Positions 7,175 through 63,057 of a stretch of 64,000 nt of DNA are shown one piece after another (the stretch's first letter is position 1; each line of letters starts with the position of its first letter). The notes beneath the pieces were generated by a model that saw only the letters and a list, made by a program, of their open reading frames with translations, had not been told where the DNA came from and searched no databases. The stretch covers positions 1 to 64,000 of the forward strand of contig NZ_JAGOMQ010000008.1 of assembly GCF_017993425.1 (NCBI RefSeq), written 5' to 3'. Source of the stretch: Amaricoccus sp. (GTDB taxonomy: Bacteria > Pseudomonadota > Alphaproteobacteria > Rhodobacterales > Rhodobacteraceae). The position numbers were made by a program, and so were the translations under genes.

Positions 7175-7498
7175 CACACTGCACGACAGTGGAACGGAAG
7201 CCCGGCCGGGAGCAGGCCGCGACGCCGCAGCCAGACGGATTTGACCCGTGGCAAATCCGTCCGCGATCGCCCCTGCGGGGGGCGAGCGCGATTCCGCGCT
7301 CGCCGGGGCGACCACGGACGGATGGCGCGCTTCCGGAGAAATCTTCACCCCTCACGGCTTCCGCGCGCAACCGCGCTCCAGCCGTCGGCGCGGCGAAAGC
7401 CGTGCTTTCGCTTGTCGCGCCGGGCCTCGCGGGCAAGCCCGCTTCGGTCGCTCAAGGCCCCGTGGAGCCAGCAGGACAGGCAGGCGTCGTGCAGTGTG
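7175..7498 (+). repeat. dispersed hairpin-rich element, copy A (324 bp)
   Basis: Terminal inverted repeats are CACACTGCACGACA at the left end and its near-complement ending GTCGTGCAGTGTG at the right. Internal perfect stems are: GACGGATTTG (7234-7243) with CAAATCCGTC (7252-7261); GGCGAGCGCG (7281-7290) with CGCGCTCGCC (7295-7304); CGAAAGC (7394-7400) with GCTTTCG (7404-7410), inside an outer GGCGCG/CGCGCC; and GCGGGC with GCCCGC (7429-7442). The 9-bp flanks GTGTGCGAG and GCGCGCGAA agree at 6 of 9 positions, a possible decayed target duplication. The element overlaps the 3' end of the hydrolase gene and supplies its stop codon. No transposase is encoded. Confidence 0.85.
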
Positions 7499-8384
7499 GC
7501 GCGCGAAGCCGCGCCGCCGGCAGGCCGAGGACGAAGTCGGCGACGTCGTCGCGGACCACCTTGCCGTGCAGGTCGCGGAACAGCCAGTGCCAGCCCTCGG
7601 GGTAGAGCCGCCAGCCGGCGGCGGCGGGGATGCGGTCGTGGACGCTCTCGACCCGGTCGGGGCGGAGGATCTCGTCATGGGCGCCCATCAGCGTCAGCGT
7701 CGGGGTCTCCACCTCCGGCGCGGCGGCGGCGGCCATGTCCATGATCCGCACGAGGCCCCAGAGCTCCCGGCTCGACGGGTCGCCGAAGAACCGCGGATCG
7801 GCGAGCGCCCGGCGGATCGCGTCGAGGTTGTCGGTCGGGCTGATCTCGACCACGCCGTCGCCGGTCCAGCGCTTCTCCGGCGCGACCGTCGCGATGGCCC
7901 AGGCCCCGGCCCGCAGCACCGGGTTCAGCGCGTCGCCCCCGGCGATGGCGGGCCCGGCCAGCACGATCGCGTCGGCGTCGAGGCCCTGCGCCGCCGCGGC
8001 CAGCGCCACGCCGCCCCCCATCGAGTGCCCGACCACCACGAGCGGCACGCCCGGGTTACGGGCCCGGACGATGCGCGAGAGCTGGACCGCGTCGGAGACC
8101 AGCGCCTCGGGCCCCGGCCAGCGCCGCCAGCTCGGGTTCGCCCCGAAGCCGCGCTGGTCCGGGGCATAGACGGCGATGCCGCGGGCGGCCCAGTCGCGCG
8201 CGGCGCCTTCCCAGGCGGTCGCCCCCGTATCCCCGAACCCGTGCAGCGCAAGGATCGCCGCCCGCGTCTCCCCCCGCGCCGGCCAGGACCGCAAGGTCAC
8301 GTGCGGGTCCGCAGTCGGCGGCGCCGCGCAGGCGGCGAGCCCGAGCAGGGCGACGGCGAGGAAGGCGAGTTTCAGGCGGTTCAT
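7452..8384 (-). CDS. alpha/beta-hydrolase lipoprotein (lysophospholipase-like)
   Basis: 310 residues from ATG 8384. The signal peptide ends in a lipobox (LAAC, Cys19), so the protein is probably membrane-anchored. An alpha/beta-hydrolase fold follows with the nucleophile elbow GHSMGGG (Ser121), LHGFGDTG as oxyanion-hole region and GWHWLF as the likely catalytic His region, resembling monoacylglycerol lipase/lysophospholipase. The last 14 or so residues (HCTTPACPAGSTGP) are encoded by repeat copy A, so the native C-terminus after residue 290 has been replaced. The xth gene lies 76 bp upstream. Confidence 0.88.
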   Translation of the reverse strand: MNRLKLAFLAVALLGLAACAAPPTADPHVTLRSWPARGETRAAILALHGFGDTGATAWEGAARDWAARGIAVYAPDQRGFGANPSWRRWPGPEALVSDAVQLSRIVRARNPGVPLVVVGHSMGGGVALAAAAQGLDADAIVLAGPAIAGGDALNPVLRAGAWAIATVAPEKRWTGDGVVEISPTDNLDAIRRALADPRFFGDPSSRELWGLVRIMDMAAAAAPEVETPTLTLMGAHDEILRPDRVESVHDRIPAAAGWRLYPEGWHWLFRDLHGKVVRDDVADFVLGLPAARLRAPHCTTPACPAGSTGP

Positions 8385-8460
8385 CTGGTTCGTTCCGTCG
8401 GGGCGGCGGCGGCGCGACAGGCCCGCCGCGGGCGGCGCAGCGGGCGCGGGCGAGCGGGAG

Positions 8461-9237
8461 TCATCGCGGGGCGAGCTCGATCCAGGCGGGGGCGTGGTCG
8501 CTGGCGTCCGGCTCCCCCCGGGCGGCGCGGTCGACGCCGCCGCGGCGCAGCCGCCGCGCGGCCTCCGGGCTGAGGAGCAGGTGGTCGAGCCGCATCCCGG
8601 CGTCGCGCTCCCAGCGGTTCCGGCGGTAGTCCCAGAAGGTGTAGAACACCGCCTCCGGCTCGAGCCGCCGCAGCGCGTCGGTCCAGCCGTCGGCGAGGAA
8701 GCCGGCGAAGGCGGCGCGGGGGCCGGGCTGGACCAGCGCGTTGTCGTCGTAGGAGCGGGTCGGATAGACGTCGCGCGGCTCCGGCGCGACGTTCCAGTCG
8801 CCGGCCAGCACCACCGGCACGCCGGCGGCGAGGAGGCCGGCCGCATGGGCGCGCAGTCGGTCCATCCAGGCGAGCTTGTAGTCGAATTTCGGCCCCGGCT
8901 GCGGGTTGCCGTTCGGGGCGTAGAGCGAGGCGACCAGCACCCCGCGCACCGCGGCCTCGACATAGCGGGGCTGGCGGTCGTCGGGATCGCCGGGCAGTTC
9001 GGCTCGGGTCGGCACCGGCTCGGCCCCGCGGGCGAGGATCGCCACGCCGTTCCAGCTCCGCTGCCCGCGCCAGACCGCGGCATAGCCGGCCTCGGCCAGC
9101 GCGTCGGCGGGAAAATCCGGCTCGGCGACCTTCAGCTCCTGCAGGCAGACCACGTCCGGCCGCGTCGCCGCCAGCCAGGCGAGCAGGTTCGGCAGCCGCC
9201 GGACGACGTTGTTGACGTTGAAGGTCGCGATCCGCAT
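8461..9237 (-). CDS. xth: exodeoxyribonuclease III
   Basis: 258 residues, the normal length for this AP endonuclease/3'-5' exonuclease of base-excision repair. The start is MRIATFNVNNVVRRL. CLQELK supplies metal-binding Glu34, YAPNG the substrate loop, GDWNVAP catalytic Asp147 and Asn149, and SDHAPAWIEL near the C-terminus the final Asp-His pair. It lies 6 bp after the hydrolase gene at 9244 and reads as the third gene of a minus-strand operon starting with the TPR gene. Confidence 0.95.
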   Translation of the reverse strand: MRIATFNVNNVVRRLPNLLAWLAATRPDVVCLQELKVAEPDFPADALAEAGYAAVWRGQRSWNGVAILARGAEPVPTRAELPGDPDDRQPRYVEAAVRGVLVASLYAPNGNPQPGPKFDYKLAWMDRLRAHAAGLLAAGVPVVLAGDWNVAPEPRDVYPTRSYDDNALVQPGPRAAFAGFLADGWTDALRRLEPEAVFYTFWDYRRNRWERDAGMRLDHLLLSPEAARRLRRGGVDRAARGEPDASDHAPAWIELAPR

Positions 9238-9243
9238 CGGGCC

Positions 9244-9864
9244 TCACGCCAGCCGCGCGACCCAGCCCGCGATGGCGGCGGCGAGCTGGCGGCGGCGCCC
9301 GGCGGCGGAGACGCCGGTGACCGACTTGCGCGGCGCGAGGTCGTGGTCGCCGTCCTCGAACCACAGGACCTCGATCGCGGGGGAGAGCGCGTAGGTCGCG
9401 ACCTCTTCCCTGCCGCCGAACGGGTCGCGGGTCCCCTGGCAGATCAGCGTCGGCGTGGCGAGCCCGGCGAGGTGGCCGGTGCGGGTCTGCGCCGGCTTGC
9501 CCGGCGGGTGGAACGGATAGCCGAGGCAGACGAGCCCCGCCGGTCCGATCGCGTCGGCCGCCATCGAGGCGACCCGCCCGCCCAGCGACTTGCCGCCGAT
9601 GATCAGCCGCCCCGGGAAGGCGAGCGCGGCGACGGCCGCCTCGAACTCCGGAATCAGCGTCTCCCCGCGCGGCGGCGGCCGGCGCTCGCCGCGGCGGCGG
9701 GCGGCCATGTAGGCGAACTCGAAGCGGGCGACGGCGAGGCCCTCGGCGACCAGCGCCGCGGTCAGCGCGTTCATCCACGGGCTGTCCATCGCCGCGCCGG
9801 CCCCGTGGGCGAGGAGCAGCGTCGCTGCGGCGTCCGCCGGGCCGTCGCGCAGGAATTCGGTCAT
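9244..9864 (-). CDS. KANL3/Tex30-type alpha/beta hydrolase
   Basis: 206 residues from ATG 9864, which overlaps the upstream TPR gene stop as ATGA. LLAHGAGAAMDSPWM (17-31) and the nucleophile elbow GGKSLGGRVAS (Ser93) define the KANL3/Tex30 group of dienelactone-hydrolase-like proteins. CQGTRDPFGGREEV and GDHDLAPRKSVTG carry the likely catalytic Asp and His. The substrate is unknown. A longer open frame upstream of 9864 lies wholly inside the TPR gene and was not used. Confidence 0.88.
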   Translation of the reverse strand: MTEFLRDGPADAAATLLLAHGAGAAMDSPWMNALTAALVAEGLAVARFEFAYMAARRRGERRPPPRGETLIPEFEAAVAALAFPGRLIIGGKSLGGRVASMAADAIGPAGLVCLGYPFHPPGKPAQTRTGHLAGLATPTLICQGTRDPFGGREEVATYALSPAIEVLWFEDGDHDLAPRKSVTGVSAAGRRRQLAAAIAGWVARLA

Positions 9865-10931
9865 CTCCCGCCCCGGGCGAGGGCGACGAAGGTGAGCCCG
9901 CGCTCGGCGGCGCGCGCCCATTCCGAGGTGGCGTCGAGCTCGAGGTAGCGCCGCCACCAGCGCTCCGCCGCGGCGAGGTCGCCGGCCTCGAGCTCCAGCG
10001 TGGCGAGGTTGTAGACCGCGTCGGCGTAGTCCGGGTCCGCCGCGATGGCGCGGGCGAGCTGCGATCGCGCGGCGGCGACGCGGCCGCGGGCGCGGGTGAG
10101 GCCGGCGAGGTTGAACCAGGCCTCGACGAAGCCCGGGTCGAGCTTCACGGCGCGCACGTAGCCGCGCTCGGCCTCGGCGGTCTCGCCGAGCAGGCGCAGG
10201 CAGTTGGCGCGGTTGAAGGCGGCGGCAGCGTCCGCCGGGTCGAGCGCGAGGCAGCGGGCGTAGGCCGCCTCCGCCTCGGCGAGCCGCCCGTCGTCCTCCG
10301 CTTCCTCGGCCTCGGCGAAGAGCGCGTCGGGCGTGGCGCCCGGGCCGCCGAGGTCGAGCAGGAGCTGGCCGTCGAGCTCGGAGAGCCGGTCCGCGCCGTC
10401 GCGGGCGAGGATGGCGCGCCCCTGCCGCTCCAGCGCCCGGGCGGGCAGCGACGCGCGGCAGGCGCCGCGCAGCGACCGCGCGATCTCGCCCCAGCCCGCG
10501 CCCTCGGCGAGCAGTCCCGCATATTTGCGCGCGAGGATGAGGTCGCGCAGCCCGAAGGGCGCGAACGGCGCCTCGAAGGCGTCGAAGAGGCGCAGCAGCC
10601 GCAGGTCGGCCGCCGGCAGCCGCGACTTCGCGGCAAGCTCGGCCTCCGTCATCCCGGCGGCGGCGGGCGCCGGCGCGAGGCCGAGCGCGGCGAGGAACCC
10701 CGTCTCGGAAAGGAGCGCCCGCCCCGCCTCCGCCTCCGTGGCGACCCGCGCGGCGAGGGCGGCGTCGTCCCGCCGGTCGAGAAGGCCGCGGCCGAGGACC
10801 AGATGGGTCACGCCCCGGTCCGCCCCGCGCCGCAGCCGCGCGCCCGCAGCGGCGGCGGCCCGGGCGGCGAGGCGCCGGGGAAAGGCGGCGAGCGGCCCGA
10901 GAAGGCCATAGACCGGAGCGCCCTGCGTCAT
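9861..10931 (-). CDS. tetratricopeptide-repeat protein with BRCT-like N-terminus
   Basis: 356 residues. The first 50 residues (PVYGLLGPLAAFPRRLAARA then GVTHLVLGRGLLDRR) look like the fold ending of a BRCT-type domain. Residues 95-170 form a helical region resembling a DNA-binding or adaptor segment. Residues 205-345 are at least three TPR units (AEAAYARCLALDPADAAAAF, AERGYVRAVKLDPGFVEAWF and ARAIAADPDYADAVYNLATL). It probably acts as a protein-interaction scaffold; no enzymatic motif is visible. It is first in the run with the two genes downstream. Confidence 0.8.
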   Translation of the reverse strand: MTQGAPVYGLLGPLAAFPRRLAARAAAAAGARLRRGADRGVTHLVLGRGLLDRRDDAALAARVATEAEAGRALLSETGFLAALGLAPAPAAAGMTEAELAAKSRLPAADLRLLRLFDAFEAPFAPFGLRDLILARKYAGLLAEGAGWGEIARSLRGACRASLPARALERQGRAILARDGADRLSELDGQLLLDLGGPGATPDALFAEAEEAEDDGRLAEAEAAYARCLALDPADAAAAFNRANCLRLLGETAEAERGYVRAVKLDPGFVEAWFNLAGLTRARGRVAAARSQLARAIAADPDYADAVYNLATLELEAGDLAAAERWWRRYLELDATSEWARAAERGLTFVALARGGR

Positions 10932-11062
10932 GCCCCCTGCCTACAGGATCGCCCGCCCCCCTCGCCAGCCCCGTTCGCCCCGAGGATGAACGGCCGGCGG
11001 TCTGGTCCGGGCCGGCGGGACGCCGTGGCCGCGCCCACCGTCCGGAGCGGGGCCAGCTGCGA

Positions 11063-11941
11063 TCAGGCCTTCGCCTTGGCCGGCGCCCGGCGGGCGCGGG
11101 GGGCGGGCTTCGCCTCCGCCTCGGCGGCGGGCTTCTCCTCCGCCTTGCTGCGGCTCTTCGCCGGCGGCTTGGACTGGCCGAGCGACTGCTTCAGCGCGTC
11201 CATCAGGTTGACCACGTTGCCGCGCTCCGGGGCCGCGGCGATGATCGGCTTGTGGCCCTTCAGCTTCTCCTTGATCATCGTCATCAGGGCCTTCTCGTAG
11301 CGGTCCTCGTAGGCCGCGGGGTCGAACCTCGTCTCCTTCTGCTCGATCAGCTTCTCGGCCAGCGCCAGCATCTCCGGGTCGGGCTTCTCGTCGGGGATCG
11401 AGTCGAAATAGGCCGCCGTCCCGCGCACCTCGCCCGGGTTCCTCAGGACGGAGACGAACATCCCCTTCCCGCGCGGACCGATCGTCACCACCCGCTCGCG
11501 CGAGGAGAGCACCAGCCGGGCGATGGCGAGCTTGCCGGACTTGCGCATCGCCTCGCGCAGCACGATGAACGTCTCCTCCGCCATCGCGCCGTCGGGGGCG
11601 AGGTAGTAGGGGCTGTCCTGCCAGACGACGTCGACCGAGCCCTGGTCGACGAAGGCCTCGATCGCCATCGTGTGGTTGGTCTCGATCTTGACCGCCTCGA
11701 GGTCCTCGTCGTCGACGATGATGTACTTCTTGTCCTCGTACTCGTAGCCGCGCACCAGGTCGGCGCGGTCGACGAGGCCGAGCTCGGGGTCGACCGGCTT
11801 CATGTTGATGCGATTGTGGGTCTTCCTGTGGAGCTGGTTGAAGCGCACCCGCTCGGAGGAGCTGGTCGCCGGGTAGAGCCGCACCGGGCAGCTCACGAGG
11901 CTCAGCTTCAGGTAGCCGGTCCAGCTCGCCCTCGGGGCCAT
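11063..11941 (-). CDS. ku: Ku protein (non-homologous end joining)
   Basis: 292 residues. Bacterial Ku is a homodimer that rings DNA ends and recruits LigD. The beta-barrel core is recognised from MAPRASWTGYLKLSLVSCPV, the segment INMKPVDPELGLVDRADLVR and YYLAPDGAMAEETFIVLREA. The last 45 residues are Lys/Ala/Pro-rich, the usual basic tail that aids DNA binding. ligD lies 13 bp upstream on the same strand, so the two are one operon. Confidence 0.96.
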   Translation of the reverse strand: MAPRASWTGYLKLSLVSCPVRLYPATSSSERVRFNQLHRKTHNRINMKPVDPELGLVDRADLVRGYEYEDKKYIIVDDEDLEAVKIETNHTMAIEAFVDQGSVDVVWQDSPYYLAPDGAMAEETFIVLREAMRKSGKLAIARLVLSSRERVVTIGPRGKGMFVSVLRNPGEVRGTAAYFDSIPDEKPDPEMLALAEKLIEQKETRFDPAAYEDRYEKALMTMIKEKLKGHKPIIAAAPERGNVVNLMDALKQSLGQSKPPAKSRSKAEEKPAAEAEAKPAPRARRAPAKAKA

Positions 11942-11954
11942 GTCGTCTCTCCCG

Positions 11955-14396: not shown

Positions 14397-14605
14397 GGGA
14401 GCGAGGGTAGGGCGGGCCGGCTCCTCCGGCAAGCGGCGGCTCCGGCGGCCTCGCCGTCGCGGAAATGTCGAAGACCGCGCTTCCGGGGGAACGACCAAGA
14501 TACCCCGCAGAGGGAGGTGTTGCGAACCTCGGCGATAGGGTCCATCACGTTCGGCGTCTTGCTGATATCCACGCGAACGCGTCGAGCCGAGCCGGGAGGA
14601 CGTCC

Positions 14606-15575: not shown

Positions 15576-15604
15576 CTTGAAGCCGTCCGGCGGGGCGCCC
15601 ATGT
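15576..15604 (+). promoter_or_regulatory. RpoH (sigma-32)-type heat-shock promoter
   Basis: CTTGAAG at 15576-15582 and CCCATGT at 15598-15604, separated by 15 bp, match the sigma-32 consensus closely. Transcription would begin near 15611, leaving a leader of about 97 bases before hsp20, long enough for the thermometer described next. Confidence 0.65.
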
Positions 15605-24397: not shown

Positions 24398-25699
24398 ATG
24401 CTGGATAGCTACTTCAAACTCAAGGAACATGGGACCACGGTCCGGACCGAGCTGATCGCCGGCCTGACCACGTTCCTGACGATGGCCTACATCATCTTCG
24501 TCAACCCGCAGATCCTCGCCACCACCGGCATGGACCAGTCCGCGGTCTTCGTCGCCACCTGCCTCGCCGCCGCCATCGGCTCGGCGATCATGGCGCTCTA
24601 CGCCAACTGGCCGATCGCCATGGCGCCGGGCATGGGGCTCAACGCCTTCTTCGCCTTCACCGTCGTCGCCCATCTCGGCTTCACCTGGCAGCAGGCGCTC
24701 GGCGCGGTCTTCATCTCCGGCTGCATCTTCCTGATCCTGACGGTGACGGGCGTGCGGCGCTGGCTGGTCGCCGGCATCCCGCACTCGATGCGCTCGGCCA
24801 TCGCCGCCGGTATCGGCCTCTTCCTCGGCATCATCGCGCTGAAGAACGCCGGCATCGTCGTGACCTCCGAGGCGACCTCGGTGACGCTCGGCCACATGAT
24901 GGCCCCGGCGCCGCTCCTCGCCATGCTCGGCTTCTTCATCATCGCCGCGCTCGACGCGCTGAAGGTGACGGGCTCGATCCTGATCGGCATCCTCGTGGTG
25001 ACGGTGATCTCGATCATCTTCGGCTTCTCCGAGTTCGGCGGGCTGATGTCGACGCCGCCCTCGATCGCGCCGACCTTCCTCCAGCTCGACGTCTTCGGCG
25101 CGCTCGGCGTCGGCATCGTGCAGGTCGTGCTGGTCTTCGTCCTCGTCGAGGTCTTCGACGCCACCGGCACGCTGATCGGCGTCGCCAAGCGCGCCGGCCT
25201 GCTGACCGAGGGCCCGGGCCACACCAACCCGCAGCTCGGCAAGGCGCTCCTCGCCGACAGCTCCGCGATCGTCGCCGGCTCCTTCCTCGGCACCTCCTCG
25301 ACCACGGCCTATGTCGAGAGCGCCTCGGGCGTGCAGGCGGGCGGCCGCACCGGGCTGACCGCGCTGACCGTCGCCGTCCTCTTCCTGCTGGCGCTGTTCT
25401 TCTCGCCGCTCGCCGGCTCGGTGCCCGCCTTCGCGACGGCCCCGGCGCTGCTCTTCGTCGCCTGTCTCATGGCGCGCGAGCTGACCGACGTCGACTGGGA
25501 CGACATCACCGAGGCCGCGCCGGCCGCGCTCACCGCGATGATGATGCCCTTCACCTACTCGATCGCCAACGGCCTCGCCTTCGGCTTCATCTCCTACGCG
25601 GCGCTGAAGCTCCTGACCGGCAAGGGCTCCCAGGTCCACGCCGCCACCTGGCTCGTCGCGGCGCTCTTCCTGATCCGCTTCATGTTCTTCCAGGAGTGA
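24398..25699 (+). CDS. NCS2-family purine permease (AzgA-like)
   Basis: 433 residues and about 12-14 membrane helices, consistent with the AzgA/PbuG-type hypoxanthine-guanine permeases. NWPIAMAPGMGLNAFFAF is the signature of that branch, and DATGTLIGVAKRAGLL is the conserved segment of TM8. Xanthine or uric acid transport is less likely because UraA/UapA-branch motifs are absent. It is 69 bp after xdhC and probably supplies purines to XdhAB and guanine deaminase. Confidence 0.92.
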   Translation: MLDSYFKLKEHGTTVRTELIAGLTTFLTMAYIIFVNPQILATTGMDQSAVFVATCLAAAIGSAIMALYANWPIAMAPGMGLNAFFAFTVVAHLGFTWQQALGAVFISGCIFLILTVTGVRRWLVAGIPHSMRSAIAAGIGLFLGIIALKNAGIVVTSEATSVTLGHMMAPAPLLAMLGFFIIAALDALKVTGSILIGILVVTVISIIFGFSEFGGLMSTPPSIAPTFLQLDVFGALGVGIVQVVLVFVLVEVFDATGTLIGVAKRAGLLTEGPGHTNPQLGKALLADSSAIVAGSFLGTSSTTAYVESASGVQAGGRTGLTALTVAVLFLLALFFSPLAGSVPAFATAPALLFVACLMARELTDVDWDDITEAAPAALTAMMMPFTYSIANGLAFGFISYAALKLLTGKGSQVHAATWLVAALFLIRFMFFQE

Positions 25700-25907: not shown

Positions 25908-26080
25908 TTTGAATATAAACGGTGAAAATCATTGCACAGTCATCAGCGCCGCATTTCGCGGCGCCGTTCGACGCACTTGAAGCTTGCGCCCTCCCTGTCC
26001 AAACGACGCTCCGCATCGAGCAGGAGACGGCGCCGCTCGTCGCCCTCCTGCCGCCTACGTCATGCAGCGTGGGCGCCGCG

Positions 26081-26412
26081 CACACTGCACGACACCTGTC
26101 TGCTCTGCTGGATCCACGGGGCGCGCGCGCCGACCGACCGACCGAAGCGGGCTTGCCCGCGAGGCCCGGCGCGACAAGCGAAAGCACGGCTTTCGCCGCG
26201 CCGACGGCTGGAGCGCGGTTGCGCGCGGAAGCCGTCAGGGGCGCAGATTTCTGCGGAAGCGCGCCATCCGTCCGTGAGCGCCCCGGCGAGCGCGGACGCG
26301 CTCGCCCCCCGCAGGGGCGATCGCGGACGGATTTGCCACGGGTCAAATCCGTCGGGCGTCAGTGTCGCGGCCAGCCTCGGGCCGGGCTTCCTCTCCACTG
26401 TCGTGCAGTGTG
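26081..26412 (-). repeat. dispersed hairpin-rich element, copy B (332 bp, reverse)
   Basis: The ends are CACACTGCACGACA and its exact complement TGTCGTGCAGTGTG. The same 9 bp, GGCGCCGCG, abut both ends (26072-26080 and 26413-26421), a perfect target-site duplication. The interior is copy A in reverse, with the same hairpins. The element sits between the NCS2 permease and lysR in otherwise AT-rich spacer. Open frames run across it but are different in each copy and resemble nothing. Confidence 0.92.
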
Positions 26413-26460
26413 GGCGCCGCGAGTTATAATATAACATATATAGATAAATCAGACACTTGC

Positions 26461-27438
26461 CTAATTTTCACGCGTGAACACTGCCCGAGTCCCGGCCGTT
26501 CCGGCCTCCTCCCGCCCCGGCGCAAGCTCCGCGTCGAGCGCGGCGATCCGGCGGCGGCACTCCTCCGCCATGAAGTCGATGAACACCCGCAGCTTCGGGT
26601 CCATCAGCCGCTTGTGCGGGTAGACGATGGCGAGCTCCGCCGGGGCCGGCGGCGTCTCGGGCAGCACCTCGACCAGCGCCCCGGAGGCGAGGTGCCGGGC
26701 CAGCAGGAACCGCGACAGGTTCACCACCCCGTGCCCGGCCAGCGCCCAGTCCATCAGCACCTCGCCGTCGTCGGTGTCGAAGGGCCCGGAGAACTCCAGC
26801 CGCTGCAATCCCTCCGCCGTCTCGAAGGTCCACGTATATTCCGGGCTGCCGGTGTAGCGCAGGATCAGGCAGTCGTGCCCCTGCTGCAGCGCCTTCAGCG
26901 ACGCCGGCGTGCCCTTGCGCGCCAGATATTCCGGCGCGGCGGCCAGCACCCGCGGGCAGGACATCAGCCGCAGCACCCGCAGGTTGCTGTCCTTGAGCCG
27001 CCCGAGCACCAGCGCCGCGTCGATGCCCTCCTCCAAGAGGTCGACCACGTGGTCCGAGAGCCGCAGCCGCACCTGGATCTCGGGATAGCGGGCATGGAAG
27101 CCCGGGACCGCCGGCGCGACCACCCGCCGCCCCACCGCCAGCGGCGCGGTGATGCGGATCGCCCCCCGCGGCGCCCGCCCGATCGCCGCGACCGAGCCCT
27201 CCGCCTCGGTCAGCGCCTCCAGCACCTTCTTCGCCCCGTCGTAGAGCGCGTCCCCCTGCTCGGTCGGGCTGAGCTTGCGGGTCGAGCGGTTGAAGAGCCG
27301 CACCCCGAAATGCGCCTCCAGCGCCTTCAGCCGGCTCGACGCCACCGCCGGCGTCAGCCGCAGGTCGTGCCCGGCGGTGGAGAGGTTCCGCAGCTCGTAG
27401 ATGCGCACGAAGAGCCGCAGGTTCTCGAGATAGGACAT
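26461..27438 (-). CDS. LysR-family transcriptional regulator
   Basis: 325 residues from ATG 27438. The winged helix-turn-helix covers about 1-60 (SYLENLRLFVRIYELRNLST, then PAVASSRLKALEAHFGVRLF and STRKLSPTEQG). The effector domain occupies 90-300, with the CrgA/AaeR-like pattern APLAVGRRVVAPAVPGFHAR. It is divergent from guaD, with a 141-bp shared region holding a palindrome with T-N11-A spacing, so it probably controls guaD. The effector may be a purine, by context only. Confidence 0.92.
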   Translation of the reverse strand: MSYLENLRLFVRIYELRNLSTAGHDLRLTPAVASSRLKALEAHFGVRLFNRSTRKLSPTEQGDALYDGAKKVLEALTEAEGSVAAIGRAPRGAIRITAPLAVGRRVVAPAVPGFHARYPEIQVRLRLSDHVVDLLEEGIDAALVLGRLKDSNLRVLRLMSCPRVLAAAPEYLARKGTPASLKALQQGHDCLILRYTGSPEYTWTFETAEGLQRLEFSGPFDTDDGEVLMDWALAGHGVVNLSRFLLARHLASGALVEVLPETPPAPAELAIVYPHKRLMDPKLRVFIDFMAEECRRRIAALDAELAPGREEAGTAGTRAVFTREN

Positions 27439-35176: not shown

Positions 35177-35177
35177 G

Positions 35178-36235: not shown

Positions 36236-37423
36236 ATGAAACTGACATCAACAGCGCTGCTGCTGCTCGGCGTGGCCGGCCTCGCCGCCCCCGCGCTCGC
36301 CCAGGACGACCGCATCGTCGTCGGCTTCGCCACCGCGCAGTCGGGCTTCATGCAGGCCTACGACGAGCCGGCGACCCAGGCCGCGCAGATCCGCATCGAC
36401 GAGATCAACGCCGCCGGCGGCCTGCTCGGCCACCAGATCGAGACGGTCGCCGCCGACACCAAGTCCGACCGCGCCGAGGGCGCCAAGGCCGGGCTCGAGG
36501 TGATCGAGGGCGGCGCCGACCTCGTCGTCGTCTCCTGCGACTACGACTTCGGCGCCCCGGCGGCGCTGATGGCGGAGAGTAACGGCATCGTCTCGTTCTT
36601 CCTCTGCGCCGAGAGCGTGCGCGCCGGCATCCAGGGCGTCGGCCCGCATTCCTTCTCGTCGTCGGTCCTCGCCGCCGTGCAGGGCGCCACGATGGCGGAA
36701 TGGGCGCACGCCAAGCTCGGGGCGAACCGGTTCTACGTGCTCGAGGACACCTGGACCGAGTACAACAAGGGCATCTGCGACGGCTTCGACTGGCGCGCCC
36801 CGCAGATCGAGGGCGTCGAGATCGTCGGCCGCGACACCTTCGTCAACGACGACGCCTCGATCGCCGCGCAGATCACCCGGATCAGCCAGCTTCCCGAGCC
36901 GCCGGACGCGATCATGCTCTGCTCGATGATGCCGGGCGTCGTCTCGGCGGTGAAGCAGATCCGCGACGCCGGCATCGCCATCCCGATCCTGAACGGCTCC
37001 GGCGCAGACGGCAGCTACTGGATGGACGCGGTGCCCGGCCTCTCCGAGTTCTACATCCCGGTGCAGGGCTCGATCTACGGCGACGACCCGAACCCGAAGG
37101 TGCAGGAGTTCAACAAGGCCTTCGAGGCGAAGTTCGGCGCCGGCCCCTCGTCGCAATACGCCTATCCGGGCTACGTGATGATCGACGTCTGGGCCAAGGC
37201 GGTGGAGCGCGCCGGGACCACCGAGGCGAACGCCGTCGTGGCCGAGCTCGAGAAGATGAAGGACGAGCCGACCATCTTCGGCGCCCGCACCTTCACCTCC
37301 GAGCTGCACCACCAGAACCGGGCGGAATACAAGATCGTCAAGGTCACCGACGGCAAGCCCGCCGTCGTCGACACCTGGACGATCGCCGAGCCGGTCCCGA
37401 TGGAGGCGCTGCTCGGCAACTGA
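36236..37423 (+). CDS. livK: LIV-type ABC transporter substrate-binding protein
   Basis: 395 residues from ATG 36236 (AGGGAG nine bases before); an in-frame ATG at 36203 would add a short unlikely leader. Signal peptide MKLTSTALLLLGVAGLAAPALA. A type I periplasmic binding fold covers 25-370, with VVGFATAQSGFMQAYDEPA and the hinge region CDYDFGAPAALMAESNGI. The ligand may be a branched-chain amino acid, an amide or urea; specificity residues cannot be read. It is last in the operon, before a hairpin at 37438. Confidence 0.9.
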   Translation: MKLTSTALLLLGVAGLAAPALAQDDRIVVGFATAQSGFMQAYDEPATQAAQIRIDEINAAGGLLGHQIETVAADTKSDRAEGAKAGLEVIEGGADLVVVSCDYDFGAPAALMAESNGIVSFFLCAESVRAGIQGVGPHSFSSSVLAAVQGATMAEWAHAKLGANRFYVLEDTWTEYNKGICDGFDWRAPQIEGVEIVGRDTFVNDDASIAAQITRISQLPEPPDAIMLCSMMPGVVSAVKQIRDAGIAIPILNGSGADGSYWMDAVPGLSEFYIPVQGSIYGDDPNPKVQEFNKAFEAKFGAGPSSQYAYPGYVMIDVWAKAVERAGTTEANAVVAELEKMKDEPTIFGARTFTSELHHQNRAEYKIVKVTDGKPAVVDTWTIAEPVPMEALLGN

Positions 37424-37459: not shown

Positions 37460-37465
37460 GGCATT

Positions 37466-37720
37466 CACACTTTCCGGCCGAAGCCCCGGATCGGGGCAGA
37501 ACGGGCCGCAACGCCGAAGCCAGATGGATTTGACCCGTGGCAAATCCGTCCGCGCTCGCCGGGGCGCTCACGGACGGATGGCGCGCTCCCGCAGAAATCT
37601 TCGCCCCTGACGACCCCGTGCCAACGCGCTCCAGTCGTCGGCGCGGCGAAAGCCTTGCTTTCGCTTGTCGCGCCGCGGCCTCGCGGGCAAAGCCCGCTTC
37701 GGTCGGTCAGCTTTGGAGCC
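37466..37720 (+). repeat. dispersed hairpin-rich element, copy C (decayed, about 255 bp)
   Basis: The left end CACACTTTCCGGCCGAAG is a degraded terminal repeat. The TTTGACCCGTGGCAAATCCG hairpin (left arm GATGGATTTG, now imperfect), the CGGCGAAAGC hairpin and GCGGGCAAAGCCCGC are kept. About 35 bp spanning the left half of the GGCGAGCGCG hairpin is missing, and the right terminal repeat is absent. This copy looks old and immobile. Confidence 0.8.
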
Positions 37721-37733
37721 GAATCTTCCGTCC

Positions 37734-37791
37734 TGTGGATAACCCTGTGTGAAATCCTATGGATAATCTGTTGATATCTTTATTATCCAAC
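37734..37791. promoter_or_regulatory. cluster of DnaA-box-like sites
   Basis: TGTGGATAA (37734-37742) is the exact complement of the DnaA box TTATCCACA. TATGGATAA (37758-37766) differs at one base, and TTATCCAAC (37783-37791) at two. The DNA is locally AT-rich (CTGTTGATATCTTTATTATC). It may be a DnaA-titration or regulatory site; no replication genes adjoin it. Confidence 0.5.
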
Positions 37792-37838: not shown

Positions 37839-38717
37839 TCAGCGCAGCCGGCGGATCGTCATCAGCGGCGCCAGCCGCGCCTTGCGCAGGAACCCGGCGA
37901 GCAGCGCCGGGTCCGGCCCCGCCGCCTCGGTCGTCCCGGTCTCCTCCGCCGCGAGCCCCCCGGTGACGAAGAGCGCGTCGAGATTCTCCCCCATCGCTCC
38001 CAGCACGTCCGTCGCCACCCCGTCGCCGATGGCGAGGATCTCCTCCGCCGTCACCTCCGCGCCCAGCAGCTGCGAAACCCGCCGCCGCGCCAGCGCATAG
38101 ATCGGCGGGTGCGGCTTGCCGAAATAGAAGCTCGCGCCCCCCGCCTCCGCATAGGCCTGCGCGATCGCGCCCGCGCAGTAGATCCGCCGCTCGCCCACGT
38201 CGACCACCACGTCCGGGTTGGCGCACAGAAGCCGCAGCCCCCGGGTCTTGCCCTCGAGGATCAGCGCCCGATAATCGTCGGGCGTCTCGGTCGCATCGTC
38301 GAAGAGCCCGGTGCAGACGATGCCCTCCGCCTCCGCCAGCGGGACCAGCTCGACGTCGTAGGGCCGCCCCTCCGCGTCGCGGAAGAAGGCGAGGTCGCGC
38401 TCCGGCCCGACGTGATGCACCCGCCGCCCGAACCGCCCCGTCGCCAGCGCCTCCTGCGCCGCGTCGCCGGACGAGACGATCAGGTCGTAGCACGAGGCGG
38501 GCGCCCCCAGCCCCTCCAGCTGCCGCGCCACGCTCGCCGCCGGCCGCGGCGAGTTGGTCAGCAGCACCACCGCGCCGCCGCCCTCCCGGAAGCGCTCCAG
38601 CGCGGCGACCGCGGCCGGGAAGGCCCGCACCCCGTCATGCAGGCACCCCCAGAGGTCGCAGTAGAGCACCCGGTAGCCCGGGGCGATGTCGGCGAGGCTG
38701 TCGATGATGCGGGTCAT
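37839..38717 (-). CDS. HAD-superfamily class IIA hydrolase
   Basis: 292 residues. The class IIA layout is clear: motif I YCDLWGCLHDGVRAFPAAV (nucleophile Asp about 20), motif II LLTNSPRPA, a large cap (about 90-190), motif III in FYFGKPHPPIYALA and motif IV LAIGDGVATDVLGAM. The variant motif I (DLWG instead of DxDG) is usual in this proteobacterial subfamily. The physiological substrate, probably a sugar or nucleotide phosphate, is unknown. Confidence 0.88.
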   Translation of the reverse strand: MTRIIDSLADIAPGYRVLYCDLWGCLHDGVRAFPAAVAALERFREGGGAVVLLTNSPRPAASVARQLEGLGAPASCYDLIVSSGDAAQEALATGRFGRRVHHVGPERDLAFFRDAEGRPYDVELVPLAEAEGIVCTGLFDDATETPDDYRALILEGKTRGLRLLCANPDVVVDVGERRIYCAGAIAQAYAEAGGASFYFGKPHPPIYALARRRVSQLLGAEVTAEEILAIGDGVATDVLGAMGENLDALFVTGGLAAEETGTTEAAGPDPALLAGFLRKARLAPLMTIRRLR

Positions 38718-55679: not shown

Positions 55680-55683
55680 GGCC

Positions 55684-57193: not shown

Positions 57194-57966
57194 GCCTCGT
57201 GGCGAGCGAGATCGACGGGCGGGGCGTCGCCACGCTGCGCCTCGACCGCGCGGAGAAGCACAACGCCATGTCGGGCGAGATGTGCGACGAGATCGCCGCG
57301 GCGGCGCGGCGGCTCGGCGCCGATCCGGCGGTGCGCGCGGTGGTGCTCGCGGGGGCCGGGCGGACCTTCTGCGCCGGCGGCGACCTCGGCTGGATGGGGG
57401 CGCAGTTCGACGCCGACCGCGCCGGCCGCATCGCCGAGGCCCGTCGGCTCGCGGGCATGCTCTTCACGCTCAACACCCTGCCGAAGCCGGTGATCGCCCG
57501 GGTGCAGGGCGCGGCCTATGGCGGCGGGGTGGGGATGATGGCGGTGGCGGATTGCGTGGTCGCCGCCGCGGACGCGCGCTTCGGGCTGACCGAGACGCGG
57601 CTCGGGATCATCCCCGCCACCATTGCGCCCTATGTGGTGGCGCGGATGGGCGAGGGGCGGGCGCGGGCGGTGTTCTTCTCGGCGCGGGTCTTCGGGGCCG
57701 ACGAGGCGAAGGGGCTGGGGCTCGTCAACCGCATCGCGCTCCCCGAGGACCTCGACGGCGCGGTGGCGGCGGAGGTTGAGCCGTATCTCTCGGTCGCGCC
57801 GGGCGCGGCGGCGGCGGCGAAGCGGCTGGCGCGCAGCCTCGGCCCGCGGATCGACGAGGCGGTGATCGAGGCGACGATCACCACGCTCGCCGACGTCTGG
57901 GAGACCGACGAGGCGCAGGCGGGGCTGCGGGCCTTCCTCGAGAAGCGGCCGGCGCCATGGGCGTGA
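57190..57966 (+). CDS. enoyl-CoA hydratase (methylglutaconyl-CoA hydratase by context)
   Basis: 258 residues. The crotonase fold has the oxyanion loops [14 protein letters not shown] and [20 protein letters not shown], with the catalytic Glu in [20 protein letters not shown], as in the LiuC/AtuE group. Hydration of 3-methylglutaconyl-CoA to HMG-CoA links MccAB to HMG-CoA lyase. ATGA overlap upstream and a 10-base overlap with the ammonia-lyase downstream. Confidence 0.92.
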
Positions 57967-59495
57967 CGCTGATCCCGGGCGAGACACTGGTCCCGGGCGG
58001 GACGGGGCTCGCGGCGCTGGCGGCGGTCCTCGGCGGCGCGGCGGCGGCGCTCGACCCGGCGGCGCGCCCGGACGTCGAGGCGGCGGCGGCGCGCATCGCC
58101 GGGGCGGCGGCGGGCGCGGCGGCGGTCTACGGGGTCAACACCGGCTTCGGCAAGCTCGCGAGCGTGAAGATCGCCGCGGGCGACGCGGCGGCGCTCCAGC
58201 GCAACCTGATCCTGTCGCACTGCGCCGGGGTCGGGCCGGCGACGCCCGTGCGGATCGTCCGGCTGATGATGGCGCTGAAGCTCCTGTCGCTCGGACGGGG
58301 GGCCTCGGGGGTGCGCTGGGAGATCGTGGCGCTGATCGAGGGGATGCTGGCGCGCGGCGTCGTGCCGGTCGTCCCGGCGCAGGGCTCGGTCGGCGCCTCG
58401 GGCGACCTCGCGCCGCTCGCCCACATGGCGGCGGTGATGATCGGCGCGGGCGAGGCCGAGGTCGCGGGGCGGGTCCTGCCGGGCGCCGGGGCGCTGGCGG
58501 CGGCCGGGCTCGCGCCGGTGACCTTGGGGCCGAAGGAGGGGCTCGCGCTCATCAACGGCACGCAGTTCTCCACCGCCTGGGCGCTCGCGGGCCTGCTCGA
58601 CGGCTGGCGGGCGGCCTCGAGCGCGCTCCTCGTCTCGTGCCTCTCCACCGACGCGATCATGGGCTCGACCGCGCCGCTCAGGCCGGAGATCCATGCGCTG
58701 CGCGGGCATCGCGGCCAGATCGAGGCGGCGGCGCTGATGCGCGGGCTGATGGCCGGGTCGGCGATCCGCGAGAGCCATCGCGAGGGCGACACGCGGGTGC
58801 AGGACCCGTACTGCATCCGCTGCCAGCCGCAGGTGACCGGGGCGGCGATGGACCTGCTGCGGCAGGCGGCCGCCACGCTGGTCGTCGAGGCGAACGCGGC
58901 GACCGACAACCCGCTGGTGCTCGCCGACGGCATCGTCTCGGGCGGCAACTTCCACGCCGAGCCGGTCGCCTTCGCGGCCGACGTGATCGCGCTGGCGCTG
59001 GCCGAGATCGGCGCGATCGCGCAGCGGCGGGTGGCGCTGATGGTCGACCCGACGCTCTCCTTCGACCTGCCGCCGTTCCTGACGCCGGATCCGGGGCTGA
59101 ACTCCGGCTTCATGATCGCCGAGGTGACCTCCGCGGCGCTGATGAGCGAGAACAAGCATCTCGCGCATCCCTGCTCGACCGACTCGACGCCGACGAGCGC
59201 CAACCAGGAGGACCACGTCTCGATGGCGGCGCACGGGGCGCGGCGGCTCGCGCCGATGGTGGCGAACCTCGAGCGCATCCTCGGGATCGAGGCGCTCTGC
59301 GCGGCGCAGGGGGTGGAGTTCCGCGCGCCGCTGACCACGAGCCCGCCGCTCGCCGCGGCGCTGGCGCGGCTCCGGGCCGAGATCCCGCCGCTCGGCGTCG
59401 ACCGCAGCCTCGCCGCGGAGCTGGAGGCGGCGGCGCGGCTGGTGCGCGAGGGCGCGCTGCTCGAGGCCGCCGGGGTGGCGCTCACGCTACCGTGA
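57957..59495 (+). CDS. hutH: histidine ammonia-lyase (MIO enzyme)
   Basis: 512 residues from ATG 57957, which overlaps the hydratase gene. The MIO prosthetic group forms from Ala147-Ser148-Gly149 in [56 protein letters not shown] and NFHAEP fit histidine ammonia-lyase. It deaminates His to urocanate. No hutU, hutI or hutG is nearby, which is unusual, and the overlap places it in the leucine operon. A tyrosine or phenylalanine ammonia-lyase role is less likely but not excluded. Confidence 0.9.
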
Positions 59496-59574
59496 GAGGC
59501 GATTAACCGTAGGTTTGCTTGCGACGTGGAGGCTCCGGCCGTTAACGTCTCCGTTGTTGCTGCGGGAGTTTGAA

Positions 59575-60279
59575 GTGGCGCTGCCCCCGATCTGGCTGCT
59601 GTTCCTGGGCGCGCTGGCGGTCCGCAAGGTCTCCGCCGAGCCGTTGCCGCTGCGCGAGGATCTGATCCCGCTCGACGGCTTCGAGGGCGCCGCGCTGCTC
59701 GCCGGGGCCGAGGCGCGCGCCGGCTATGCCGCGCTCGACCGGCATTTCGTGGGGCAGGTCCATCCCGCCTTCTGCGGCCCGGCGACCATGGCGATCCTGC
59801 TGAACGCGCTCCACGAGGCGCCCGACGGCGTCCGCCGCCTGCGTCCCTTCGACCAGAGCAACGTCTTCACCCCCGAGGTGGCGCGGCTCCGCGCCCGCAA
59901 CCGCGTCGCCCGGGCGGGAATGCCGCTCGCGATCCTCGCCCGGGCGCTCGCGGCGCACGGGCTCGCGGTCGAGACGCGCTATGTCGACGAGACCGGCGTC
60001 GACGCCTTCCGCGACCTCGCTCGCGCCGCGCTGGCGACGGGAGACCGCTTCGCCGCCGTGAACTACGACCGCCCGGCGCTCGGCCAGCAGGGCAAGGGCC
60101 ACATCTCGCCGCTCGCCGCCTACAACGGCGCCGCCGACCGCTTCCTCGTCCTCGACGTCGCCCGCGCCAAGTATCCCCCCACTTGGGTCGAGACCGCCGT
60201 CCTCCACGACGCCATGCGCCGCCCCGGCGGCGGCCGCCCCAGCCGCGGCTTCGTCCTCGCCGGCCGCCAGCCTTCCTGA
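59575..60279 (+). CDS. phytochelatin-synthase-like papain-fold protein, exported
   Basis: 234 residues from GTG 59575, with GGGAG upstream; a longer frame from ATG 59515 lacks support. Signal peptide MALPPIWLLFLGALAVRKVSAEP. Papain-like catalytic triad Cys67 (HPAFCGPATMAILLNALH), His176 (QQGKGHISPLAAYN) and Asp194 (VLDVARAKYPPTW), with spacing close to cyanobacterial phytochelatin-synthase homologues. Those one-domain bacterial proteins mainly remove Gly from glutathione conjugates rather than build phytochelatins. The second (C-terminal) domain of plant enzymes is missing. Confidence 0.88.
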   Translation: MALPPIWLLFLGALAVRKVSAEPLPLREDLIPLDGFEGAALLAGAEARAGYAALDRHFVGQVHPAFCGPATMAILLNALHEAPDGVRRLRPFDQSNVFTPEVARLRARNRVARAGMPLAILARALAAHGLAVETRYVDETGVDAFRDLARAALATGDRFAAVNYDRPALGQQGKGHISPLAAYNGAADRFLVLDVARAKYPPTWVETAVLHDAMRRPGGGRPSRGFVLAGRQPS

Positions 60280-60422
60280 CTCCCGTCCGCCTCCGTTCCT
60301 GGCCGCGGGGGCGGGGAGACGGCGCCGCCGGCGCAACGGTCGAGCGCGCCGCGGGCGGAACGCCGCCACAGGCGCGACATCGACGCGGCGCCTGGGTCCG
60401 GCCGGCGCGAGCCGGGCGGACG

Positions 60423-61478
60423 TCAGGCGCCGAGGACCAGGATGTCGGAGGGCGCGAAGGCGATCTCCACCCGCTCGCCGAGCGCCGGCGGCGGGGAGGC
60501 CGCGTTGTTGAAGGTGTCGAGCGCAACGCTGCCGCCCGCCACGTCGACGCGGATGCGCACCACCGAGCCGTGGAAGCTCACCTCCGACACCGTGCCGGCG
60601 AGCCGCGTGTCGCCGGGCCGCGCCGCCAGCCCGACCGCCTCCGGCCGCAGCGCCAGCGCCACCGCCTCGCCCGCCGCCGCCGGGACCGGCCGGCCGAGCG
60701 CGATCTCCGCGTCGCCGACCGTCACCCGCCCGGCGCCCGGCTCGACCGCCCGCGCCTCGATCTGGTTCAGCGTGCCGACGAAGCCCGCGACGAAGCGCGT
60801 CGCCGGCCGGTTGTAGATCTCGAAGGGCGGCCCGACCTGCTCCGCCACGCCGCCGTTCATCACCACGATGCGGTCCGACATGGAGAGCGCCTCCTCCTGG
60901 TCGTGGGTGACGAAGATCGTGGTGATGCCGAGCTTGCGCTGGATCGCCCGGATCTCGGTCCGGAGCGACACCCGGATCTTCGCGTCGAGCGCCGAGAGCG
61001 GCTCGTCGAGCAGCAGCACCTTCGGCCGCACCGCCAGCGCGCGCGCCAGCGCCACCCGCTGCTGCTGCCCGCCGGAGAGCTGGAACGGATAGCGCTCGCC
61101 GAGCTCGGGCAGGTGGATGATCCCGAGCATCTCGCGCACCCGCGCGTCGATCTCCGCGCGCGGCCGTCCGGCGACCCGGAGCCCGAAGGCGACGTTCTCG
61201 GCCACCGTCATGTTCGGGAAGAGCGCATAGGCCTGGAACACCATGCCGATGTCGCGCTGGCTCGGGCGCAGGCCCGTCACGTCGCGCCCGTCGATGCGGA
61301 TCGCCCCGGCCGAGGGCGTCTCGAACCCCGCCACCATGCGCAGCACCGTGGTCTTGCCGCAGCCGGAGGGGCCGAGCAGCGTGATGAACTCGCCCTTGTC
61401 GACCGCGAGGTCGAAGGAGCGCACCACATGGTTGGCCCCGAAATGCTTCTGCAGGGCGGAGAGCTCGAGAAACGCCAT
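60423..61478 (-). CDS. spermidine/2-aminoethylphosphonate-type ABC transporter ATP-binding protein
   Basis: 351 residues from ATG 61478. Walker A GPSGCGKT, signature LSGGQQQRVALARALA, Walker B VLLLDEPLSALDAK and switch His in IFVTHDQEEALSMSDRI. After about residue 240 comes the TOBE/OB regulatory domain (LRPEAVGLAARPG, SEVSFHGSVVRIRVD). It is last in the minus-strand operon, 2 bp after the permease at 61481. PotA, FbpC and PhnT are all possible relatives. Confidence 0.92.
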   Translation of the reverse strand: MAFLELSALQKHFGANHVVRSFDLAVDKGEFITLLGPSGCGKTTVLRMVAGFETPSAGAIRIDGRDVTGLRPSQRDIGMVFQAYALFPNMTVAENVAFGLRVAGRPRAEIDARVREMLGIIHLPELGERYPFQLSGGQQQRVALARALAVRPKVLLLDEPLSALDAKIRVSLRTEIRAIQRKLGITTIFVTHDQEEALSMSDRIVVMNGGVAEQVGPPFEIYNRPATRFVAGFVGTLNQIEARAVEPGAGRVTVGDAEIALGRPVPAAAGEAVALALRPEAVGLAARPGDTRLAGTVSEVSFHGSVVRIRVDVAGGSVALDTFNNAASPPPALGERVEIAFAPSDILVLGA

Positions 61479-61480
61479 CG

Positions 61481-62272
61481 TCACCTCGGCGCGGGGGTGA
61501 ATTTCTGCAGCCGCGTCACCAGCGAGATCAGGCCCATGCAGGCCCAGGTGATGGCGAAGGCGATCACGGCCAGCGCGGCCGGCTCGTAGGCGCGGTTGGC
61601 GCCGAGGAGCTGCATGAAAGGCCCGAAGGCCGGGCGGTTGAGGAGGGCGGCCAGCGTGAACTCGCCGATCACGATGGCGAAGGTCAGGAACGCCCCGGAG
61701 AGGACCGCGACCATGACGTTGGGCAGGATCACCCGCCGCAGCACCGTGAGCTTGCTCGCCCCGAGGCTCTCGGCCGCCTCGGTCAGCGTCGCCACGTCGA
61801 TGGTGCGGAGCCCGGTGTCGACGGCGCGGTACATGTAGGGCAGCGCCAGCGTCGTGTAGCCCATCAGCAGCAGGAAGTTGGTCCCCCCCGCCGTCCCGGT
61901 CAGCGGCAGGATCGAGGACGTGTTGTAGAGCCGGATATAGCCGAACACGATGACGATCGCCGGGATGACCAGCGGCAGCAGCGTGATGAACTCGACCACG
62001 GGCCGCCACCGCGGCAGCTTCAGCCGCACCCAGTAGGCGGTCGGCACCACCAGCGCCACCCCGACCACGATGGTCAGGAGCGCCATCACCGTCGAGTAGA
62101 GGAAGGTCGCGTGGAACCGCGGATCGGAGAACACCGCCCGGTAGGCGTCGAGGGAATAGACCCCGCGCCGCATCCGGAGCGAGAACTCCAGCGTGCCGAT
62201 CAGCGGCAGGAAGAAGTAGAGGACGCCGATCACGAAGGCGACCCAGGCCCAGAGCCTCGTTCCCGCCCTCAT
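61481..62272 (-). CDS. ABC transporter permease (PotC-like)
   Basis: 263 residues with six membrane helices. The EAA motif is TEAAESLGASKLTVLRRVILP (near residue 165-185), which docks to the ATPase. NTSSILPLTGTAGGTNFLLL and GEFTLAALLNRPAFGPF fit the PotC/PhnV branch of binding-protein-dependent permeases. It is separated from the upstream permease by 820 bp filled with repeat copies D and E. Confidence 0.92.
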   Translation of the reverse strand: MRAGTRLWAWVAFVIGVLYFFLPLIGTLEFSLRMRRGVYSLDAYRAVFSDPRFHATFLYSTVMALLTIVVGVALVVPTAYWVRLKLPRWRPVVEFITLLPLVIPAIVIVFGYIRLYNTSSILPLTGTAGGTNFLLLMGYTTLALPYMYRAVDTGLRTIDVATLTEAAESLGASKLTVLRRVILPNVMVAVLSGAFLTFAIVIGEFTLAALLNRPAFGPFMQLLGANRAYEPAALAVIAFAITWACMGLISLVTRLQKFTPAPR

Positions 62273-62400
62273 GCGCGCCGTCCGGCGCGGCAGGCCCGGG
62301 CGCCGCCGCCGTGGCGGGCGCGCTCGCAGGCTAACACGCGTGATAGTGTGGTCAAGACCTTGATGCCACAGGGGATTTTCTCCGGCGTCAACCGGCCGGC

Positions 62401-62724
62401 CACACTACACGACAGTAGAGCCGAAGCCCGGCCGGAAGCAGGTCGCGACACTGACGCCAGACGGATTTGACCCGTGGCAAATCCGTCCGCGATCGCCCCT
62501 CGGGGGGCGAGCGCGATTCCGCGCTCGCCGGGGCGCTCACGGACGGATTGCGCGCTTCCGGAGAAATCTGCGCCCCTCACGGCTTCCGCGCGCAACCGCG
62601 CTCCAGCCGTCGGCGCGGCGAAAGCAATGCTTTCGCCTGTCGCGCCGTGGCCTCGCGGGCAAGCCCGCTTCGGTCGCTCGGGGCCTCGTGGAGTCAGCAG
62701 GGCAGACAGGTGTCGTGCAGTGTG
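62401..62724 (+). repeat. dispersed hairpin-rich element, copy D (324 bp)
   Basis: Left end CACACTACACGACA, right end TGTCGTGCAGTGTG. All internal hairpins of copy A are present, including the perfect GGCGAGCGCG ATTC CGCGCTCGCC stem. The left flank is CCGGCCGGC. The right flank, GCCGGCCGG, is the exact junction with copy E. Confidence 0.9.
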
Positions 62725-62733
62725 GCCGGCCGG

Positions 62734-63057
62734 CACACTACACGACAGTGGAGAGAAATATCGGTCGGGAGGGTGCGGGACGGTGAAGCCAGACGGATTT
62801 GACCCGTGGCAAATCCGTCCGCGATCGCCCCTGCGGGGGGCGAGCGCGTCGCCGCGCTCGCCGGGGCGATCACGGCCGGATTGCGCGGTGCGTGGAAATC
62901 TGGACCCCCCACGGCCTCCGCGCCAATGCGCTCCGGCCGTCGGCGCGGCGAAAGCCGTGCTTTCGCTCGTCGCGCCGCAGCCTCGCGGGCAGAGCCCGCT
63001 TCGGTCGGGGCGAGCGCCGCAGCCTCGGGCGGCGACCGGCTCCTGTCGTGTGGTGTG
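62734..63057 (+). repeat. dispersed hairpin-rich element, copy E (324 bp)
   Basis: Begins CACACTACACGACA at 62734, nine bases after copy D ends, and finishes TGTCGTGTGGTGTG at 63057. The right flank TCGGCCGGC matches the left flank of copy D (CCGGCCGGC) at 8 of 9 positions. The interior is more diverged than copies A and D (for example the GGCGAGCGCG arm is followed by TCGC instead of ATTC). Confidence 0.88.

Follow-up and report, generated by a model that had tools for sequence, protein, structure and literature searches.

A stretch of 64,000 nucleotides from contig NZ_JAGOMQ010000008.1 of an Amaricoccus genome (4.24 Mb in 102 contigs), called the window below and situated in contig C55, carries five copies, A to E, of a hairpin-rich repeat. 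Copy A is located between the 3' ends of two genes, 6002-7126(+) and 7452-8384(-), the latter of which overlaps the copy by 47 bp. Copies B and C are flanked by convergent genes (24398-25699(+) and 26461-27438(-) for B, 36272-37423(+) and 37839-38717(-) for C), and D and E stand in a tandem gene context. All genes were called with a simple codon-model gene caller. The original prediction had described a mobile element with inverted ends, and the coordinates, lengths and ends it gave for A, B, D and E were all reproduced (324, 332, 324 and 324 bp). Copy C, which had been listed as a further copy of the same kind, turned out to be a decayed element with a second type of ends (ATTCACAC...GTGTGAAAT). 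We refer to the two types of terminal inverted repeats (TIRs) as TIR1 and TIR2, to the element as a miniature inverted-repeat transposable element (MITE), and to its hairpins and segments by names coined in this analysis (P1, P4, P5, P6; a, b, c). The features of the window are:

7175-7498, plus strand: copy A, full TIR1 MITE of 324 bp; TIRs at 7175-7188 and 7485-7498, flanks matching at 6/9 positions
7234-7261: hairpin P1 of copy A
26072-26080: GGCGCCGCG, the 9-bp target duplication on the left of copy B, with its second copy at 26413-26421
26081-26412, minus strand: copy B, full TIR1 MITE of 332 bp
26467-26478, minus strand: target-block palindrome TTCACGCGTGAA, 66 bp beyond the end of copy B
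37463-37755, plus strand: copy C, decayed TIR2-type element with the remnants ATTCACAC (37463-37470) and GTGTGAAAT (37747-37755)
62335-62342: palindrome CACGCGTG, its centre ~62 bp outside copy D
62401-62724, plus strand: copy D, full TIR1 MITE of 324 bp
62460-62674, plus strand: structured module of copy D, with the P1 hairpin, a central three-segment stem, P4, P5 and P6
62734-63057, plus strand: copy E, full TIR1 MITE of 324 bp, E-type subfamily, right end diverged

Copies, ends and target duplications

The ends of A, B, D and E are related to CACACTGCACGACA. Over the first 276 bases of A, BLASTN identity is 92% between A and D, 89% between A and B and 86% between A and E; copy C aligns with interior positions 41-280 only, and its central stems are partly deleted. 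The 9-bp target duplication proposed for copy B is perfect and reads CGCGGCGCC on the copy's own strand, while the flanks of D and E match at 4/9 positions each. D and E form a tandem pair with the 9-bp spacer GCCGGCCGG. Tandem MITE pairs ~9 bp apart, as at 62401-63057, were also seen at loci L085-L089, which suggests insertion right beside an existing copy.

Searching the whole genome for the end sequence with at most one mismatch resulted in 97 forward and 90 reverse matches (187 in all), compared with 1 + 0 for a reversed control pattern, and the first interior hairpin (at most two mismatches) was found 84 + 70 times, with no match for its control. From this we estimate about 100 element copies in this Amaricoccus genome. 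The copies analyzed further were taken from targeted loci and not from the whole genome; they comprise 69 distinct full-length elements, two of which (C and L019:2431) have TIR2 ends, and 105 distinct copies of the interior. The 9-bp flanks were identical in 27/69 elements and agreed at 8/9 positions in another 14 (41/69 together), a level that mismatched left-right flank pairs reached in 0.3% of cases. Element length ranged from 288 to 374 bp with a median of 324 bp. The constant length claimed for the repeat thus holds for A, D and E, but not genome-wide, where 14/69 elements measure exactly 324 bp. In agreement with the claim that no frame is conserved as protein, lengths are spread over all three residues modulo 3 (25/19/25) and none of the frames stays open throughout the 69 copies, the best one being open in 45/69.

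Based on the end pairs, the target duplications, the ~100 copies and the lack of a conserved frame, the MITE-like nature suggested by the original prediction is well supported: the copies are a non-autonomous MITE with 14-bp terminal inverted repeats, CACACTRCACGACA, and a 9-bp target duplication. At 288-374 bp they have inverted ends and no transposase gene, and an autonomous partner with matching ends is represented by insertion sequence (IS) ends in this genome and by a complete relative in Cereibacter azotoformans. Unpaired ends were considered as parts of a longer autonomous element, an idea that we rejected: among the matches listed (100/187), all but one of the unpaired ends inspected belong to whole or truncated element copies. 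The exception, at C70:40517 (L066:518), stands alone, and the 3 kb behind it contain no partner end; this end lies beside a copy, in the position known from the tandem pairs. In the right parts of the copies at L053 and L077, variable GGTC/GCTC-like tetranucleotide runs lengthen the element.

Insertion sites and a candidate mover

Of 106 copies in this genome, 85 could be classified by gene context, and 37 were found between convergent, 43 between tandem and 5 between divergent genes, with none inside a called gene. Gaps of more than 60 bp in the window (n=30) served as background and gave 5 convergent, 20 tandem and 5 divergent cases. For copies of the interior in other genera (46/54 classified) the corresponding numbers were 22, 21 and 3, again with none inside genes, against 29, 65 and 18 for 112 neighbouring gene pairs. 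The remaining 21/106 and 8/54 copies lie at locus edges and were left out of these counts. No preferred orientation relative to transcription was observed (22 ++ vs 21 --).

Beside many copies we found a repeated target block, TTCACGCGTGAA-N8-AAGCCATTGATTT, the longer pattern of which has 45 exact copies. Its outer form, TGTTCACGCGTGAACA, presumably resembles a parS palindrome. The 12-mer of the block occurs at 110 sites in this genome, at none in nine sister genomes and at one in the tenth. Near copy B, the TTCACGCGTGAA palindrome overlaps the end of the called gene 26461-27438(-). With two of the 69 elements dropped for short flanks, the block was present on exactly one side in 35/67 elements and never on both; offsets ranged from 61 to 68 bp and fell at 65-68 bp in 33/35, whereas five shifted control windows together gave 2/67. 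Viewed from the blocks, 51/68 have an element end (at most four mismatches) nearby, at 84 bp in two cases and at 63-68 bp in the others. The blocks mostly follow genes, with 48/62 behind a gene reading towards them and 14/62 behind a gene reading away, at a median of 28 bp past the stop codon. Many insertions are therefore at a fixed distance from a palindrome block, a property that goes beyond an ordinary MITE.

At two contig starts (L164 and L192) the same ends as in the MITE are followed by a different interior, and the starts of these IS copies lie 65 and 66 bp away from the target block described above. A genus-wide search detected the IS end CACACTACACGACACAG at five contig ends of this genome and in 3/10 sister genomes. 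About 310 bp of the IS are known here; they open a frame (MSHRAVAALSRTLWGHV...) that, within the plasmid set, is most similar to a protein annotated as an IS4 family transposase (Cereibacter azotoformans plasmid pORIO4, 65% over 72 aa). The Cereibacter IS is complete, with 1183 bp, the ends CACACTACACGAC and GTCGTGTAGTATG, and GCAAATACC on both flanks. Its transposase matches the NCBIfam IS4 model NF033591 (7.3e-53, 179.9 bits, cut-off 152) and Pfam DDE_Tnp_1 (2e-11), and its codons, read by eye, contain the Y(2)R(3)E(6)K spacing given for the IS4 family in an excerpt of PMC2266710. The 78 aa available from the IS in this genome matched no Pfam or NCBIfam model. A search for a full-length IS with these ends, which the original prediction had proposed, yielded truncated copies at five contig ends of this genome and a complete relative in Cereibacter.

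The duplication of about one helix turn in the IS4 family agrees with the 9 bp seen both at the MITE copies and at the Cereibacter IS, and 9-bp duplications and 5'-CA ends are common to the repeats and the family as outlined in that excerpt of PMC2266710; in contrast to the family members, the repeats lack a transposase, and their interior is unrelated. The signature CA------T given there for the IS4Sa subgroup is absent, as CA is present but position 9 is A in the IS ends. The element, which the original prediction could not place in a known type, can be assigned to IS4-family ends. An IS4-family IS with nearly the same ends and the same target position is likely the mover of the MITE, and we infer that its DDE transposase would mobilise the MITE in trans. 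At L193:1550-1575, an inverted repeat, GGACGACTCCCTTGCAAGGATCGTCC, lies directly upstream of the transposase start codon. A repeat of this kind could hide the ribosome site, as has been reported for other ISs.

In the sister genomes, 4/12 IS ends are accompanied by palindromes of 14-20 bp with another sequence, starting 67-77 bp outside and in one case with a 3-nt loop. Several palindromes near ends without the 12-mer in this genome share a CACGCGTG core. No rule linking every insertion in this genome to a palindrome could be shown, there being no clear enrichment outside the repeated block.

One interior between two types of ends and in other genera

In copy C and its relatives, the interior is the same but is bounded by CTACGGCATTCACACATC and CTAGCGAATTCACACTTC. 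These TIR2 ends occur at 25 genome sites (at most one mismatch; control 0), and the copies are mostly 343-348 bp long, with a flank match of at least 7/9 in 11 of 13 measured. A 1.49-kb segment with similar, TIR2-like ends (C67:371-1862) contains a broken IS4-type transposase, one piece of which matches NCBIfam transpos_IS4_3 (8.4e-38) with 130 bits, below the cut-off of 160. Two different IS4-type end pairs carry one interior in this genome, which again exceeds what an ordinary MITE offers. At L127 (~1454-1566), a TIR2-type copy sits inside the central hairpin of another module copy, with the duplication CCCTGCGGG. L159, L171 and L174 (~1560 on) hold what appears to be a further short element of ~150 bp; its ends are similar (for example CACGCTGCACGA), its interior is different, and its spacing from the target block is unchanged.

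The interior forms a module of ~215-240 nt with the order P1, central segments a, b and c, P4 and P5, to which P6 is added in Amaricoccus. Copy D folds more stably than expected by chance, with z-scores of -4.0 as RNA and -4.65 as DNA. Covariation was tested on 25 sequences from three genera, using 500 shuffles and slid controls. For P1 and a:b, 95.4% of the cells hold standard pairs (99.6% for P1 alone), and 42 double-change cells were counted against a shuffled mean of 11.3, reached by 0/500 shuffles, with at most 3 in slid controls. An alternative stem joins the right arm of P1 and segment a to a downstream segment; with b:c included, it is paired in 89.3% of cells and has 51 double-change cells against 15.2 in shuffles and at most 8 in slid controls. 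Relatedness between sequences can by itself lift such counts above shuffles, and the slid controls serve as a second safeguard. Further pair types were no more numerous than in shuffles (205/500 reach it for P1 and a:b, 354/500 for the alternative stem). One segment therefore covaries with both neighbours and all three change together, which indicates either two folds that exclude each other or three copies kept similar at the DNA level.

Exact matches to an interior pattern in a collection of named genomes were confined to A. macauensis DSM 101730, on three contigs. The model R1 gave 14 matches in A. macauensis and 32, 17 and 15 in three other genera, a few of them weak or antisense. Under the stricter filters of the larger scans, R1 was found in 13/295 genomes of the family, this one included, from 12 genera including Amaricoccus, with 1-2 matches each outside the four richest genomes, and in none of a class-wide sample of 288 other genomes. 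Beside the module, we detected neither of the two end types at 54 copies in other genera or at 10 copies in other Amaricoccus, while the same search recovered TIR1 on both sides in 7/7 copies of this genome as a positive control. Directly before P1, the copies of other genera have TT in 39/54 and YTT in 37/54 cases, which makes a sharp left boundary; on the right, the boundary varies more. At L092 and L222, module copies of other genera have an extra hairpin of ~60 nt in the central part.

Distant searches detected no homologue of the module on plasmids, and searches of the literature found no description of this repeat. As the original prediction had suggested checking, the window was compared with Rfam (release 15): nothing matched at gathering scores and no family reaches threshold in the element, and at relaxed thresholds the matches in 18 related loci were a tRNA located outside the element and three weak ones to eukaryotic RNAs, all three below the gathering score. 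The repeat differs from an ordinary MITE in a third respect: its interior is a module of covarying hairpins that matches nothing in Rfam and that occurs in other Amaricoccus and in 11 other genera without these ends, for the most part at the 3' ends of genes.

Known bacterial MITEs include ERIC, NEMIS, RUP, BOX/SPRITE and QMITE. MITEs are usually regarded as decayed remnants of ISs. In the portion of PMC10969869 that describes them, bacterial MITEs are likewise short, non-coding and intergenic, with terminal inverted repeats, duplications and transcripts predicted to fold. In contrast to these, the interior studied here is conserved across genera without the ends and is shared by two end types, and the element is GC-rich and often placed at a fixed distance beside a repeated palindrome. 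Hairpin repeats are also known as repetitive extragenic palindromes (REPs), GTAG- or CGTC-tagged, the CGTC type being common in alphaproteobacteria; as characterized in an excerpt of PMC3733652, they are single hairpins of 20-40 bp with a tetranucleotide tag, whereas the module is an ordered hairpin set of 215-240 nt. At the left boundary in other genera, the one end compared with the tags, the sequence is mostly YTT (37/54).

Origin and possible role of the module

The explanation that we consider very probable is a MITE with CACACTRCACGACA ends, an IS4-type mover, a captured hairpin module and an often block-spaced insertion. The DDE transposase of an IS4-family IS would cut and paste the MITE in trans, and its insertion would often take place ~66 bp downstream of a palindrome and AT-rich block that mostly follows stop codons. 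Such placement would keep insertions out of genes and leave strong two-way hairpins at gene ends, which act, if at all, probably as bidirectional terminators or 3'-end caps, and this we offer as a guess. The interior does not look like a remnant of an IS deletion, and would rather be an older, family-wide module from gene 3' ends that was captured between two IS4-type end pairs. That the repeat is an ordinary internally deleted IS, with IS DNA decayed into hairpins, is accordingly disfavoured and highly improbable: IS and MITE ends match over ~14 terminal bp only (18 in L003; compared by eye), copy D has no match in the plasmid collection that contains the complete Cereibacter IS, and the same interior recurs with the second end type and in end-less copies elsewhere.

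Several observations weigh against the captured-module MITE or parts of it. No complete IS was seen in this genome, since all five matches run into contig ends, and mobilisation in trans is so far an inference. The target block is missing at 32/67 elements, and at ends without the 12-mer, palindromes at that distance number 17/120 compared with 3-19 in seven control windows. A terminator role is a guess drawn from position and fold. Among the 105 copies of this genome, single changes in stems (21 G-U, 14 A-C, 23 other mismatches and 4 Watson-Crick doubles) have no clear bias in favour of pairing on the plus strand, and over all cells A-C (186) exceeds G-U (95). These young copies therefore give no clear sign of RNA-level selection, as pairing-preserving changes are not in clear excess. 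The compensatory changes that were to be looked for are thus present between genomes but not clearly among the copies of this genome, which indicates that the structure is kept in the long term and not visibly at each insertion, and which leaves an RNA role of the stems, raised by the original prediction, undecided.

This bears on the idea that the module serves the bacterial family as a functional RNA or a bidirectional terminator, selected at each gene end and merely spread by mobility. The double changes between genomes and the share of convergent positions in other genera (22/46, background 29/112) speak for it, as do the several P5 hairpins with a GC stem followed by a T-run and the lower variability of paired sites in this genome (0.051 vs 0.092 changes per site and copy at unpaired ones). 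We nevertheless regard it as unlikely, because the young copies lack the expected excess, further pair types stay at the level of shuffles, the module is patchy (13/295 genomes) and copies have no orientation relative to transcription. Somewhat less likely still, the stems would be kept perfect at the DNA level by movement or repair of single-stranded hairpin DNA (IS200/IS605- or REP-like, or quasi-palindrome correction), without RNA function. The sharp left boundary, the segment that pairs with both neighbours and changes with them, and the fold z-score of copy D as DNA (-4.65) are consistent with this, but the right boundary is less uniform and movement in this genome clearly proceeds by inverted ends with duplication.

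Whether the module is a functional gene-end structure is open: its position speaks in favour, and the absence of constraint among young copies speaks against. More tentatively, we propose that it may be a bidirectional gene-end structure with two exclusive folds, packaged by at least two IS4-type end pairs and delivered by the transposase via a palindrome ~60 bp away, a picture that we hold to be doubtful. If it is true, selfish element and host terminators would be one dispersal system. In any case, two different sets of IS ends here carry a non-coding module that is conserved and covarying and that matches nothing in Rfam, and the ~100 natural insertions in one genome provide a system for studying how an IS4-type transposase chooses its target at a distance, and how mobile hairpins affect the ends of transcription.

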